Positions 53,486 through 59,735 of a stretch of DNA of 64,000 nt are shown here, one piece after another. A program made the translations under genes and the position numbers. The first letter of the stretch is position 1. The number at the start of each line of letters is the position of its first letter. The stretch comes from Terriglobia bacterium (GTDB lineage Bacteria > Acidobacteriota > Terriglobia > UBA7540): NCBI GenBank assembly GCA_020073545.1, contig JAIQEZ010000003.1:29579-93578 (forward strand), given 5' to 3'. Below the pieces are notes generated by a model, which saw only the letters and a list, made by a program, of their open reading frames with translations, did no database searches and was not told where the DNA came from.

Positions 53486-53561
53486 TGGTGGACCTGGAGG
53501 GGTTCGAACCCTCGACCTCATGACTGCCAGTCATGCGCGCTCCCAACTGCGCCACAGGCCC
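53486..53561 (-). tRNA. tRNA-Ala (GGC)
   Basis: Minus-strand cloverleaf with acceptor GGGCCTG/CAGGTCC including the G3-U70 pair that identifies alanine tRNA, anticodon stem CATGA/TCATG with loop CTGGCAG, T-arm with TTCGAAC, discriminator A and encoded CCA. Confidence 0.97.
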
Positions 53562-53951
53562 ACATAGAAGAAGCCAGCTAATCTGTTTGTAACATGTGGC
53601 CCAGCGACTGTCAATGAAGTGATACAGAGTGCGCGGGCTGACTGCCGCGCGATCGCCGGAGTTCACCGTCGTGCGCTGCTGCCTCTTGTCGACGGGAATA
53701 CAGAAGATCACCGCATCCTGCCGGAGACCTACTCTCCCAGCCTGCCCGCTCTGGGTAACGACTAGGCCTTCCCAGTCATGACAAAATGCCCGTCAAAGAT
53801 GGTGTACAACCCGCCCGCAGGAGGTGCATTATTTCCCGGGCCCAGGCTTTTTGGAACAAACCTTTATTTTTCGGTGTCAATCTAAATGGAAAGAGGGGTA
53901 AGCAAGCGCGGTATTGCAGTTCGACGACGGAACTGTTATCTTGAGGGCGTC
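53562..53951. other. Spacer between tRNA-Ala and the sigma factor gene
   Basis: No gene is supported in these 390 bases. The left end holds the tRNA-Ala promoter. I see no clear ECF-type promoter for the sigma factor. Confidence 0.4.
53586..53614 (-). promoter_or_regulatory. Promoter of tRNA-Ala
   Basis: On the minus strand TTGACA (53614-53609) and TACAAA (53591-53586) are spaced 17 bases apart, with the -10 about 25 bases before the mature tRNA. Confidence 0.6.
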
Positions 53952-54587
53952 ATGGGCACCGCGCGATCTGCTGAGATAACGTTCGAGCGTACGCTGCCAC
54001 CAGTCAGCGAAGAAGCGGTCTTTGTCGGCGAGTTGCGGGCGGGCTCTCAAGAGGCATTTGCTTACCTGTTGGCGGTTTATCAGAACCCGGTTTTCAACCT
54101 GGTCTCGCACATCATTGAGAACGAAGCTGACGCGTCCGACGTTCTCCAGGATGTGTTCGTGAAGGTTTTCAAGGGGATTAGGAGCTTTAACGGCGAGAGC
54201 AGTCTGAAAACCTGGATCTACCGCATTGCCGTTCACGAGGCGTCGAATCATCGCCGGAGCTGGATTCGCCGCCACTGGCGCGAGCCGTTTTCTGTGGACG
54301 ACACTGATGCTCGCTCGGCCACAGCGTCGGAAGCTATTTCGGGTGACCGCAACCCCCATGAGGTTCTCGAGCAGGCCGAGCGAGAGGAAGTGGTCAAGCG
54401 GGCTCTGGCCAGCTTGGCACGGCCGTATCGCACGGTTGTAGTGTTACGCGAAATCGAGGGACTGCCTTACGAGGAAATCGCGCAGGTGCTGGGTTTGGCT
54501 CAGGGAACTGTGAAATCCCGTCTCTTACGAGGACGGGAACTGCTGCGCCGAAAGCTGGCGAGCTATGTGGGCAAGCAACATGTTTGA
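53952..54587 (+). CDS. ECF-type RNA polymerase sigma factor
   Basis: About 211 residues of the sigma-24/RpoE type. Region 2: FAYLLAVYQNPVFNLVSHIIENEADASDVLQDVFVKVFKGIRSFNGESSLKTWIYRIAVHEASNHRR. Region 4: ALASLARPYRTVVVLREIEGLPYEEIAQVLGLAQGTVKSRLLRGRELLRRKL. The ATG at 53952 after GAGGG is preferred to the ORF-track ATG at 53886, which lacks a ribosome-binding site and a conserved extension. The stop overlaps the anti-sigma gene by eight bases, so the two are a coupled pair. Confidence 0.95.
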   Translation: MGTARSAEITFERTLPPVSEEAVFVGELRAGSQEAFAYLLAVYQNPVFNLVSHIIENEADASDVLQDVFVKVFKGIRSFNGESSLKTWIYRIAVHEASNHRRSWIRRHWREPFSVDDTDARSATASEAISGDRNPHEVLEQAEREEVVKRALASLARPYRTVVVLREIEGLPYEEIAQVLGLAQGTVKSRLLRGRELLRRKLASYVGKQHV

Positions 54588-55230
54588 GAGCTGCGTCGAA
54601 ATTCGGAGCCATTTCTCGGACTACCTCGATGACCGTTGCACGCGGGAGGTGCTGAGAGCCATCCGCTTTCACCTGGCCTACTGCGAAGCCTGCGGGCAAG
54701 AACTCGAGCAATGGCAGTCGTTGCAGGCCGACCTGCGGGCTCTTGCGCGCCGGCGAGTTCCGCCCGACCTTGCCCTCCGCTTGCGGGTTCGGATGTCCCA
54801 ACACCTCCACCGAAACCCCTTCACCCGGCTCTGGGTGCGGCTGGAGAACATCTTCAAACCGTTGTTGATTCCCGCCACCGGTGGCGTGCTGACCGCGATG
54901 ATTTGTTTCTGCCTGTTTATGGGGGCGCGAGTGGCTCCGGTCACGAACATCCCGGACGTCCCGTTGCAGATTGTCACGCCGCCTCGCGTCCGCGAGCTCG
55001 CCCCCATGGATTTCAACACCGGCGACAACCCCCTGGTGCTGGTCACCCAGATTGACGCCGGGGGCCGCGTGAAGGGATATCGGGTTCTGTCAGGTCAGAA
55101 TTCACCCGAGCTCATGCAGCACCTGGACCGGTTGATCTACTTCAGCGTCTTCCAGCCTGCCACGACATTCGGAAAGCCCACGGATGGGGAGGTGGTTCTG
55201 TCCCTGCGGCGAATCACAGTCCGAGGGTAA
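54580..55230 (+). CDS. Anti-sigma factor with zinc finger, TM helix and TonB C-terminal-like domain
   Basis: About 216 residues. Residues 1-50 carry an anti-sigma zinc finger with H31-x3-C35-x2-C38 (HLAYCEAC), typical of ZAS-type sigma inhibitors. A single transmembrane helix lies at about 96-117 (LLIPATGGVLTAMICFCLFMG). The periplasmic part (about 150-213) reads PLVLVTQIDAGGRVKGYRVLSG, PELMQHLDRLIYFSVFQPATTFGKPTDGEVVLSL, which fits the TonB C-terminal fold with its IDxxGRV, final helix, FxPA and beta-strand pattern. So cytoplasmic sigma binding and an outer-membrane-reaching domain are joined in one protein. The start overlaps the sigma gene by eight bases. The TonB-C call is by motif only. 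Confidence 0.8.
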   Translation: MFESCVEIRSHFSDYLDDRCTREVLRAIRFHLAYCEACGQELEQWQSLQADLRALARRRVPPDLALRLRVRMSQHLHRNPFTRLWVRLENIFKPLLIPATGGVLTAMICFCLFMGARVAPVTNIPDVPLQIVTPPRVRELAPMDFNTGDNPLVLVTQIDAGGRVKGYRVLSGQNSPELMQHLDRLIYFSVFQPATTFGKPTDGEVVLSLRRITVRG

Positions 55231-55235
55231 TCCGT

Positions 55236-56840
55236 TTGCTCTTGACTTCAATCCTGTCCTTGCATCTCCGGCCTCACACGGAACGCAGTCCTGTCTGTCC
55301 GGCCTCGCCCTGCCGGCGCGTGACTCGCTGGGTGTCTTCCGGTGGGGGGTTTCTCGGCGCTTGGTTTCTGATTCTGCTGGCTGCACCCCCCCCGGCTTGG
55401 TCCCAGACGCCGGGCAACGTCCTGCTGGAACCCAGCGAACAGCTTTTCTGTGTGCTGGCCGCGTTGAACGCCGCGGGGTACGACGCGGGTCTGGGGGCAA
55501 ACCCGGGAGACAACACGCGGCAGATGGTGCGCGCGTTTCTAGAGACGCGAAAGGCTGCTGTTGTCCCTGAACTCCAGAAGTTTTACAGTCAGCATCGTGT
55601 GCAAGGCGACCCGGGGGCGGACCTGGGGCAATACATTTCTCTCGCCATGCTGCTGGGCTCGCCGCCGGATTTCAAGTTCACCGTCCCCCCGGGCGAGCTG
55701 CCTCCGGATGCGCGCGACTTGATGGGGTTTGTTCCGCTCCTCAAGACTTTTTACAGTCAAGGCACGCTGCTCGTCCTCTGGGCGCAAGTCCAGCCGCGTT
55801 ACGACGTTGCCGTGGCACGTTACACGGAGGCGGTGCGCAACAGCTTCGTGCTGACTGACGCCTATTTTCGATTCCCGGCCGGGGGCTACCTGGGTCGGAC
55901 GTACACGATCTACATCGACTTGCTGGGTGTGCCTGAGCAGGTCCAGGCGCGGATCTACGGTCTGAACTACTACCTGGTGGTGACGCCTTCCAAAGAGCCG
56001 AAGATCGACGAGATCCGTCATCAGTACTTGCACTTTCTCCTCGATCCGTTGGCCGCCAAGTATGCGACGGAGATCAACCAGAAGGGTTCCCTTCGCGCCA
56101 TTGCTATCGAGGCCCCCTTGCTGTCGCCGGACTTCAAGGGGGACTTTCCACTGCTGGTCACGGAGTGCCTGATTCGCGCCGCGGAGCTGCGCATGGACAA
56201 GAAGCCCCAGGCGGAGGCGGAGAAGAGTCTGACGGAGATGACTGCGGGCGGCCTGATCCTGGTTCGATACTTCTATGGCGCCCTGGGAGACTTCGCACGG
56301 CAGGAATCTTCCATGACGCTCTACTACAAGCAGATCATCCTGGACATTGACCCGAAGATGGAAGAGAAGCAATTGTTCGGTGTCAAGTTTACTTCCCGTC
56401 CGCCGGCCCCACCCGAGAAGGCCTCGCCGGCTCTTTCGGAAGAAGACCGGCTTCTCGACCAGGGGGACGCCCTTTTTTTTCAGGGGAAATACAACGAAGC
56501 CAAGCCGGTGTATCAGGCAGTGCTGGAGAAGATCGACCCCAAGAACGCGCGAGCCCTGTACGGTCTGGCGGTCGTCTACGCTAACACCCGAAAGCCGGAT
56601 CTGGCCGATGAATACTTCCAAAAGACGCTCAGCACGGCCCGCGATTTGCGCATCGTCACTTGGTCGCATATCTATCTGGGACGGCTCTATGATTTGCGGG
56701 GCAAGCGCGACGACGCCTTGGCGCAATACCGCGCTGCCGCCCTGACCGCCGCTGCTTACCCGCTGGCGCTGCGCGCGGTGCAAAGCGGGATGGCTGGGGC
56801 CTTCGGTTCGAAGGAGGAAGGGAAGAAGGGAACACCCTAG
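55236..56840 (+). CDS. Secreted TPR-containing hypothetical protein
   Basis: Up to 534 residues. The track start is a TTG at 55236; a GTG at 55320 would also begin a signal peptide (GFLGAWFLILLAAPPPAWSQT). The middle is an unrecognised helical domain (QLFCVLAALNAAGYDAGLGANPGDNTRQMVRAFLE). From about 410 the protein has tetratricopeptide-like repeats (QGDALFFQGKYNEAKPVYQAVLEKIDPKNARALYGLAVVYANTRKPDLADEYFQKTL). It starts a few bases after the anti-sigma gene, so it is probably in the same operon and could be a target or effector of the sigma pathway. Confidence 0.8.
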   Translation: MLLTSILSLHLRPHTERSPVCPASPCRRVTRWVSSGGGFLGAWFLILLAAPPPAWSQTPGNVLLEPSEQLFCVLAALNAAGYDAGLGANPGDNTRQMVRAFLETRKAAVVPELQKFYSQHRVQGDPGADLGQYISLAMLLGSPPDFKFTVPPGELPPDARDLMGFVPLLKTFYSQGTLLVLWAQVQPRYDVAVARYTEAVRNSFVLTDAYFRFPAGGYLGRTYTIYIDLLGVPEQVQARIYGLNYYLVVTPSKEPKIDEIRHQYLHFLLDPLAAKYATEINQKGSLRAIAIEAPLLSPDFKGDFPLLVTECLIRAAELRMDKKPQAEAEKSLTEMTAGGLILVRYFYGALGDFARQESSMTLYYKQIILDIDPKMEEKQLFGVKFTSRPPAPPEKASPALSEEDRLLDQGDALFFQGKYNEAKPVYQAVLEKIDPKNARALYGLAVVYANTRKPDLADEYFQKTLSTARDLRIVTWSHIYLGRLYDLRGKRDDALAQYRAAALTAAAYPLALRAVQSGMAGAFGSKEEGKKGTP

Positions 56841-58267: not shown

Positions 58268-58981
58268 ATGGCGGAAAACTCCCGCGACCAATTTCAGGCT
58301 TCCGTCGGCTATCGCTTTCGGAATCCTCATTTCCTGTTGGAAGCTCTCACGCACGCTTCGTTTGCACAAGAGTCGGCTGAGCGGCCCCGCGACAACGAGC
58401 AGTTGGAGTTTCTGGGCGACGCGGTGCTGACCTTTGTGGTCAGCGTGATCCTGGCCGAGGCCTTTCCCGATTGGGAGGAGGGCAAACTGACGCGGGCACG
58501 CTCCCGCCTGGTGGCGGCGCCCCACCTGTACGCTGTAGCCAGCCGCCTGAGCGTGGGCGAGCATTTGCGGCTGGGGCGTGGTGAAGAGAAGACCGGTGGG
58601 CGGAACAAACCGGCGCTGCTCGTCAACGCCCTGGAAGCCGTCGTGGCCGCACTCTACCGCGACGGGGGCATCCAGGCAGCCCGCCAGTTCATTGAGCGCT
58701 TCATTGTGCCCGATGACCTCGAGGCCTGCGCCGATGACCTCTTCTCGATCGACTACAAGTCAGCGCTGCAGGAGCACTTGCAGGCGGGGCGAATGCCGCC
58801 GGCGGAATACCGCGTCGTCGAGGAGTCCGGCCCCGAGCACCAAAAAACCTTTACCGTGGAGGTCGTGACAGGAGACAATCGCCTAGCCCGGGGGCGTGGC
58901 GGCAGCAAGAAGGCCGCGGAGCAGGAAGCGGCCAGGACCATTCTCGAAGAGCTGGGCAGGAAGACCGAAACAGATGGCTGA
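58268..58981 (+). CDS. rnc: Ribonuclease III
   Basis: A 237-residue double-stranded-RNA endonuclease. The catalytic signature is RDNEQLEFLGDAVLTFVVS; a second acidic cluster appears in KPALLVNALEAVVAALYRDGG. The C-terminal dsRNA-binding domain reads DYKSALQEHLQAGRMPPAEYRVVEESGPEHQKTFTVEV, RGGSKKAAEQEAARTILEEL. It opens a tightly packed four-gene operon, and lepB starts eight bases before its stop codon. Confidence 0.97.
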   Translation: MAENSRDQFQASVGYRFRNPHFLLEALTHASFAQESAERPRDNEQLEFLGDAVLTFVVSVILAEAFPDWEEGKLTRARSRLVAAPHLYAVASRLSVGEHLRLGRGEEKTGGRNKPALLVNALEAVVAALYRDGGIQAARQFIERFIVPDDLEACADDLFSIDYKSALQEHLQAGRMPPAEYRVVEESGPEHQKTFTVEVVTGDNRLARGRGGSKKAAEQEAARTILEELGRKTETDG

Positions 58982-59735
58982 GCCTTACAAGAAATCCTCG
59001 ACGCGCGACACCTTTGAGTCGCTGGTGGTCACCGTGATCCTGGCCGTTTTCGGGACGACCTTCGTGCTGCAGGCGTTCAAGATCCCCACGGGTTCGATGG
59101 AGACCACCCTGCTGATCGGCGACCACCTGCTGGTGAACAAATTCATCTTCGCCCCACAGGGAGGATTCCTGGCCCGACTCCTTCCTTACCGTGAATTGCG
59201 CCGGGGCGACATCGTGGTGTTCAAGTTCCCGCCCTCCGACGATCAGTCGGAACCAGGCGAGCATTACGTGAAACGCGTGATCGGGCTACCCGGTGACCAC
59301 ATTCGAGTCTTTCATCGTCAGGTTTTCGTGAATGGGCAGGCGCTTTACGAACCGTATGTTCACCACACTTTTCTCGATGAGCTTCGCCCCGGTGACGACT
59401 TCCCGCCTCCGGACGCCGAGTACCTGCGCGGCGCCACCACCGCCTGGAGCGCCGAAATGGCCAGCTCCGTTCGTAACGGCGAAATCGTGGTGCCGCCCGG
59501 AAAGTATTTCGTGATGGGGGACAACCGCGAACAGAGCTGGGACAGCCGCTTCTGGGGTTTTGTTCCGCTCAGCGTGGTCAGTGGCCGGCCGCTTCTGATC
59601 TACTGGTCGTTTGAGACTCCGCGTGACGAGTACATGCACAACTCCCTGGGCGACCGCATCTCCCAGCTCGTGGGGTTGATAGTTCACTTTCCGACCAAGA
59701 CCCGCTGGCGGCGTACCTTCATGTTTGTACGCTGA
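58974..59735 (+). CDS. lepB: Signal peptidase I
   Basis: A 253-residue membrane peptidase that removes signal peptides from exported proteins. One N-terminal transmembrane helix (LVVTVILAVFGTTFVLQAF), catalytic Ser41 in IPTGSMETTLL, catalytic Lys100 in GEHYVKRVIGLPGD, and the boxes GDNREQSWDSRFWGFVP. The ATG at 58974 is preferred because the longer ORF overlaps rnc in another frame. The stop TGA shares a base with the next ATG. Confidence 0.97.
   Translation: MAEPYKKSSTRDTFESLVVTVILAVFGTTFVLQAFKIPTGSMETTLLIGDHLLVNKFIFAPQGGFLARLLPYRELRRGDIVVFKFPPSDDQSEPGEHYVKRVIGLPGDHIRVFHRQVFVNGQALYEPYVHHTFLDELRPGDDFPPPDAEYLRGATTAWSAEMASSVRNGEIVVPPGKYFVMGDNREQSWDSRFWGFVPLSVVSGRPLLIYWSFETPRDEYMHNSLGDRISQLVGLIVHFPTKTRWRRTFMFVR

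Follow-up and report, generated by a model that had tools for sequence, protein, structure and literature searches.

In a 64,000-nucleotide stretch of Terriglobia DNA, referred to here as the window, an ECF sigma factor gene is directly followed by the gene of a putative anti-sigma factor whose periplasmic domain appears to be derived from the tip of TonB, the protein that energizes outer-membrane import. We put at roughly 0.5 the probability that this autoregulated sigma/anti-sigma pair controls tonB and senses the TonB system through the TonB-derived domain. The architecture is real, conserved and undescribed within the literature searched: the regulator is of a familiar type, but its sensor domain is new; a partial search of the open literature yielded no report of an anti-sigma/TonB_C fusion. 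Also new is the recurrence of a predicted sigma promoter element before the secF-tonB gene pair or before tonB alone. A cell that has many TonB-dependent receptors needs to keep its supply of TonB in step with demand, and we know of no dedicated sensor of this balance. In this system, both the sensor domain and the recurrent target point to TonB, in a class of bacteria that is common in soils, and the existence of cultured relatives in the Terriglobia, together with the promoter link to tonB, makes the idea directly testable.

Organization and distribution of the sigma/anti-sigma locus

The sigma factor gene (53952..54587, + strand) encodes a protein matching Sigma70_r2 (8e-14), Sigma70_r4_2 (1e-16) and TIGR02937 (8.6e-32), with the best scores obtained for models of the RpoE and SigW type. 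Its open reading frame (ORF) is open from position 53886, and comparison with relatives indicates the ATG at 53952, located 74 bases downstream of the promoter element described below, as the likely start. The end of the sigma ORF overlaps by 8 bases (54580-54587) the ORF of the 216-aa anti-sigma factor (54580..55230, +), to which a TonB_C-fold periplasmic domain was assigned based on profile scans of orthologues, profile-profile comparison and fold. The next gene (55236..56840, +), a conserved partner, encodes an exported-looking protein in which TPR repeats, seen as TPR matches, are combined with the degenerate HxxxH motif RHxYLH; the motif is conserved as RH[QTIS]YLH and is followed by TEC. 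This motif resembles a zinc metallopeptidase site in which the catalytic Glu has been replaced, so that the protein is perhaps a pseudo-protease. A fold search with the partner returned TPR proteins only, and a metallopeptidase-like N-terminal half is a candidate reading.

The sigma/anti-sigma pair is retained in all 25 relatives' loci that we compared, and the sigma factor, the anti-sigma factor and the TPR protein occur together in 19 of the 20 Terriglobia loci, followed in 11 by rnc and lepB. The preliminary description had linked the anti-sigma factor to two Oar-like receptors encoded just upstream in the window. This link was not supported: neither receptor has a homologue in the 25 loci, and a tRNA-Ala gene (53486-53561, minus strand) lies between the receptor genes and the sigma gene, and the receptors were accordingly dropped as members of the unit.

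A protein search across 396 genomes of the phylum detected homologues of the anti-sigma factor in 157, many of the matches covering only the N-terminal part. Within the family of the source organism, 35 of 39 genomes encode a homologue, including all 18 near-complete ones (completeness of 90% or more, contamination of 5% or less). The genome itself contains 8 zf-HC2 loci, among which only the 216-aa protein matches the whole query. Homologues with a recognizable C-terminal domain are present in other acidobacterial classes (loci L082-L086, L119, L125-L128), and in one large acidobacterial group the C-terminal domain has strongly diverged from TonB_C (L117, L118, L122-L124). The same domain order behind ECF sigma genes, which the preliminary description had proposed to look for in other acidobacteria, is thus found across the Terriglobia and in further classes, and judging from these sequences the architecture is old, extending from the family to the class Terriglobia and to other classes of the phylum.

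A predicted zinc anti-sigma factor with a TonB_C-fold periplasmic domain

The N-terminal zinc finger claimed for the ORF behind the sigma gene was confirmed by a zf-HC2 match at residues 5-38 (E 1.7e-6), which is over the curated Pfam cut-off. The zinc anti-sigma domain (residues 1-76; 54580..54807, +) displays the ligand pattern C...HxxxCxxC (C5, H31, C35, C38), and C5, D17, H31, C35 and C38 are invariant across 44 aligned orthologues. When the family profile was compared with the PDB, RsiW was matched via the N-terminal part (chain 5wuq, E 1.6e-6). Homology and gene order hence suggest an anti-sigma function for this domain, which would be cytoplasmic. In a few more distant relatives (L130, L132, L133), the zinc ligands are lost and the TonB_C-fold domain is kept. 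The hydropathy profile agrees with the earlier claim of one transmembrane helix, showing a single hydrophobic segment at residues ~95-113 (54862..54918, +), which lacks histidine; no residue of the membrane helix or the linker is invariant among the 44 orthologues. In its zinc domain, its single membrane helix and the position of its gene, which follows the sigma gene directly and overlaps it, the protein is similar to the RsiW-type (class I) zinc anti-sigma factors, from which it differs in that its periplasmic part has the TonB_C fold. To our knowledge, no RsiW-type member with such a periplasmic part has been described.

The assignment of the C-terminal domain (residues 150-216; 55027..55227, +) depends on the orthologues. 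The protein from the window, scanned alone, has no Pfam match to TonB_C, even at E<=10, and nothing credible at the C-terminus, whereas PF03544 (TonB_C) is matched by 21 of the 44 orthologues scanned singly (best 6.7e-5) and TIGR01352 by 14. The C-terminal part of the family profile retrieved TonB chains from the PDB at E-values of 0.05-0.16. Profile-profile alignment with hhalign of the C-terminal columns to 36 Terriglobia TonB_C domains gave a probability of 93% and a score of 38.9, compared with a top score of 18.3 among 200 column shuffles and 15.9 for the reversed alignment. An AlphaFold2 model built from the alignment has a mean pLDDT of 77, with values mostly of 84-91 in the C-terminal domain, and a Foldseek search of the PDB with this model placed TonB CTDs at ranks 1-14, with probabilities up to 1.00, and RsiW at rank 15; none of the E-values is below 0.001, though the top 14 matches all agree. 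Given the orthologue scans, the shuffle-controlled profile comparison and the fold matches, the likeness to TonB_C exceeds chance, and we take the domain to be TonB-derived, with a predicted TonB_C fold. The domain shares with the TonB CTD (PF03544, TIGR01352) the fold and the GxV, SG, FxPA and GxP positions, and the motifs IDAGGRV, RVLSG and FQPA (FxPA) named in the preliminary description are all present. G162, S171, P193, A194, G198 and P200 are invariant among the 44 orthologues, and the final strand of the domain is conserved. The free C-terminus, V-[RK]-G (55219-55227, +), is near-invariant across the Terriglobia and may be a feature that a protease or a partner recognizes.

Another small alpha/beta periplasmic fold, the STN-like domain in which FoxR and PupR terminate (PMC11637429), would be another candidate for the end of an anti-sigma factor. 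Nevertheless, FecR/STN is absent from the 25 Pfam families listed for the 44 members, 21 of which match TonB_C, and PupR does not appear among the top 50 fold matches, the first 14 of which are TonB CTDs. A domain of the FecR kind is therefore disfavoured by both approaches and we regard it as very improbable. Functionally, FecR, FoxR and PupR are comparable in being anti-sigma factors with a small periplasmic interaction domain, although theirs, of STN-like type, has the signalling domain of a receptor as its partner, whereas no receptor gene is conserved next to the gene studied here. In FoxR-type anti-sigma factors, pairing of the terminal STN-like domain with the receptor domain protects from proteolysis, providing a precedent for control through periplasmic pairing (PMC11637429).

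The periplasmic domain lacks the features of an energy transducer

The claim that a single protein encoded behind an ECF sigma gene joins an anti-sigma domain to a TonB_C-fold domain is supported by profiles and fold, the kinds of check that the preliminary description had suggested. The domain is not a complete TonB C-terminal domain. In the TonB_C domains of the Terriglobia, a PxYPxxA helix is conserved, accompanied by a Trp within the motif WRYxP; in the anti-sigma factor, the TonB_C match begins after the YP helix, leaving the domain incomplete, and the position of the Trp is occupied by Ser in 34 of the 44 orthologues. In none of the 44 sequences does the best hydrophobic segment contain the histidine used with ExbB/ExbD, and the linker is short (~37 residues) and devoid of a proline-rich spacer. 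The fold would suit a true TonB paralogue that energizes receptors and carries an anti-sigma domain by chance, but unlike TonB, the protein has no YP helix, Trp, ExbB/ExbD-type membrane helix or long proline-rich spacer, and this possibility, the least probable of those considered, can be set aside. Taken from sequence and model, the C-terminus of the anti-sigma factor is best described as a TonB_C-fold domain reused for another purpose.

The same features bear on the suggestion that the Oar-like outer-membrane receptors present TonB-box strands to the TonB_C-like domain and thereby signal to the sigma factor. Strand addition is the established way in which TonB CTDs bind TonB boxes, the final strand is retained in the anti-sigma domain and Oar-like receptor genes do lie upstream in the window. 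Against this, the receptors are not conserved neighbours and are separated from the sigma gene by the tRNA gene, no receptor recurs among the putative targets behind promoter motif hits (see below), and with no YP helix, no Trp and a linker of this length, capture of an outer-membrane TonB box by the domain appears doubtful. Overall, we find signalling by these receptors unlikely.

A promoter element common to the sigma operon and tonB

Of 70 loci that include upstream sequence, 67, five of them from other classes, have GGAAC-N15/16-GGTGTC or a near variant ahead of the sigma gene, with some places represented twice in this count; for the loose pattern GGAAC-N15/16-G.GTC, the background expectation is 0.11 per 350 bases. 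In the window, the element is GGAACAAACCTTTATTTTTCGGTGTC (53853..53878, +), an ECF-type promoter element of the sigma operon. A conserved site of this kind usually indicates autoregulation, which we suggest for this sigma factor.

The same element was found at tonB. In the source genome, it precedes secF, which is followed by tonB (G000:C33), as well as a second tonB gene (G000:C62). Among 30 tonB loci, 18 have the element before secF or tonB, compared with 0 of 30 for both the reversed motif and the opposite strand. Within the family of the source organism, the element is present in all 9 tonB loci; in four further genomes it is located 24-54 bases upstream of tonB, and in two more a GGAGTC variant occupies the corresponding position before secF. 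When the ORFs behind motif hits retrieved from nine genomes were grouped, the families recurring between genomes were secF, tonB and sigma; a histidine-kinase group came from the source genome only. Thus, the functional link suggested by the sequences is to tonB itself, through a promoter element common to the sigma gene and tonB.

The secF-tonB pair (G000:C33:5500-7866; L138, L187-L194) is conserved in the Terriglobia, with the element lying ~30 bases ahead of secF; in certain families it has shifted to the gap between secF and tonB or stands before tonB alone. The second tonB (G000:C62:23684-24828; L142, L186) encodes extra N-terminal membrane helices and has its own copy of the element.

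In favour of the link, no credible motif was found at tonB in four genomes without a full-length anti-sigma factor. Against it, six genomes from two families encode the anti-sigma factor and have no such motif before tonB, and a relaxed motif search at the tonB loci without the element revealed nothing convincing. We looked for covariation of the -10 variant at sigma promoters with that at tonB promoters; it was generally absent, and the two do not always agree. Genome-wide, motif counts are barely above control, which is what a small number of true sites on a chance background would be expected to give. Given that GGAAC is a common -35 element of ECF sigma factors, the tonB sites could also be used by a second sigma factor.

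A possible circuit and its main alternative

In the circuit that we propose, the zinc domain would sequester the sigma factor in the cytoplasm, and the TonB_C-like domain would be either shielded or exposed when it pairs with another periplasmic component, which may be free TonB, the strand of a TonB box or the TPR protein encoded next door. When TonB becomes limiting, the anti-sigma factor would be cut outside and then inside the membrane, probably by regulated proteolysis, and the released sigma factor would yield more sigma, anti-sigma and TonB. A TonB-related signal to the sensor domain is the most likely one, given that tonB appears to be under the control of this very system. A stricter version, which we put forward tentatively, is a dedicated TonB homeostat, in which the sensor of the anti-sigma factor is a retired copy of the TonB tip, free TonB or unmet demand is measured by domain mimicry and supply is set by feedback.

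The main alternative is a system that, like those of RseA and RsiW, responds to envelope stress in general: the TonB_C-fold domain would serve as a compact interaction module sensing envelope damage, perhaps with the TPR partner, and tonB and secF would be just two envelope genes of the regulon. The affinity of the sigma factor to the RpoE and SigW type models fits this alternative, as do the identity of the conserved adjoining partner, which is a TPR protein and no TonB gene, the far divergence of the domain from TonB_C in one large acidobacterial group and the inclusion of secF in the putative regulon. It leaves unexplained, however, why the sensor is of TonB_C ancestry and why tonB is the recurring target. 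We consider general envelope stress a serious possibility, if short of probable, and favour the TonB-sensing circuit.

Signal peptidase and the downstream genes

Proteolytic control has parallels in RsiV and RsiP of Bacillus, which are cut by signal peptidase (PMC8844934). In the largest family of relatives (f2), a signal-peptidase-like sequence, APEPVMA-NDEP, follows the membrane helix and lepB is often nearby, as in a system of the RsiV/RsiP kind; unlike in RsiV and RsiP, the outer domain is of a different type and no such site is evident in the window protein. The signal-peptidase site was rejected as a general feature and retained for f2 only, with no clear site in the family of the source organism. 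In the window, the frequent neighbours are the genes for RNase III (rnc; 58268..58981, +) and signal peptidase I (lepB; 58896..59735, +), the latter being, by its neighbourhood, a possible site-1 protease. In E. coli, lepB and rnc are located downstream of rpoE-rseABC, in the order rpoE-rseABC-lepAB-rnc. The position of rnc and lepB (58268-59735, +) after the sigma/anti-sigma pair recalls this order and offers a lead.
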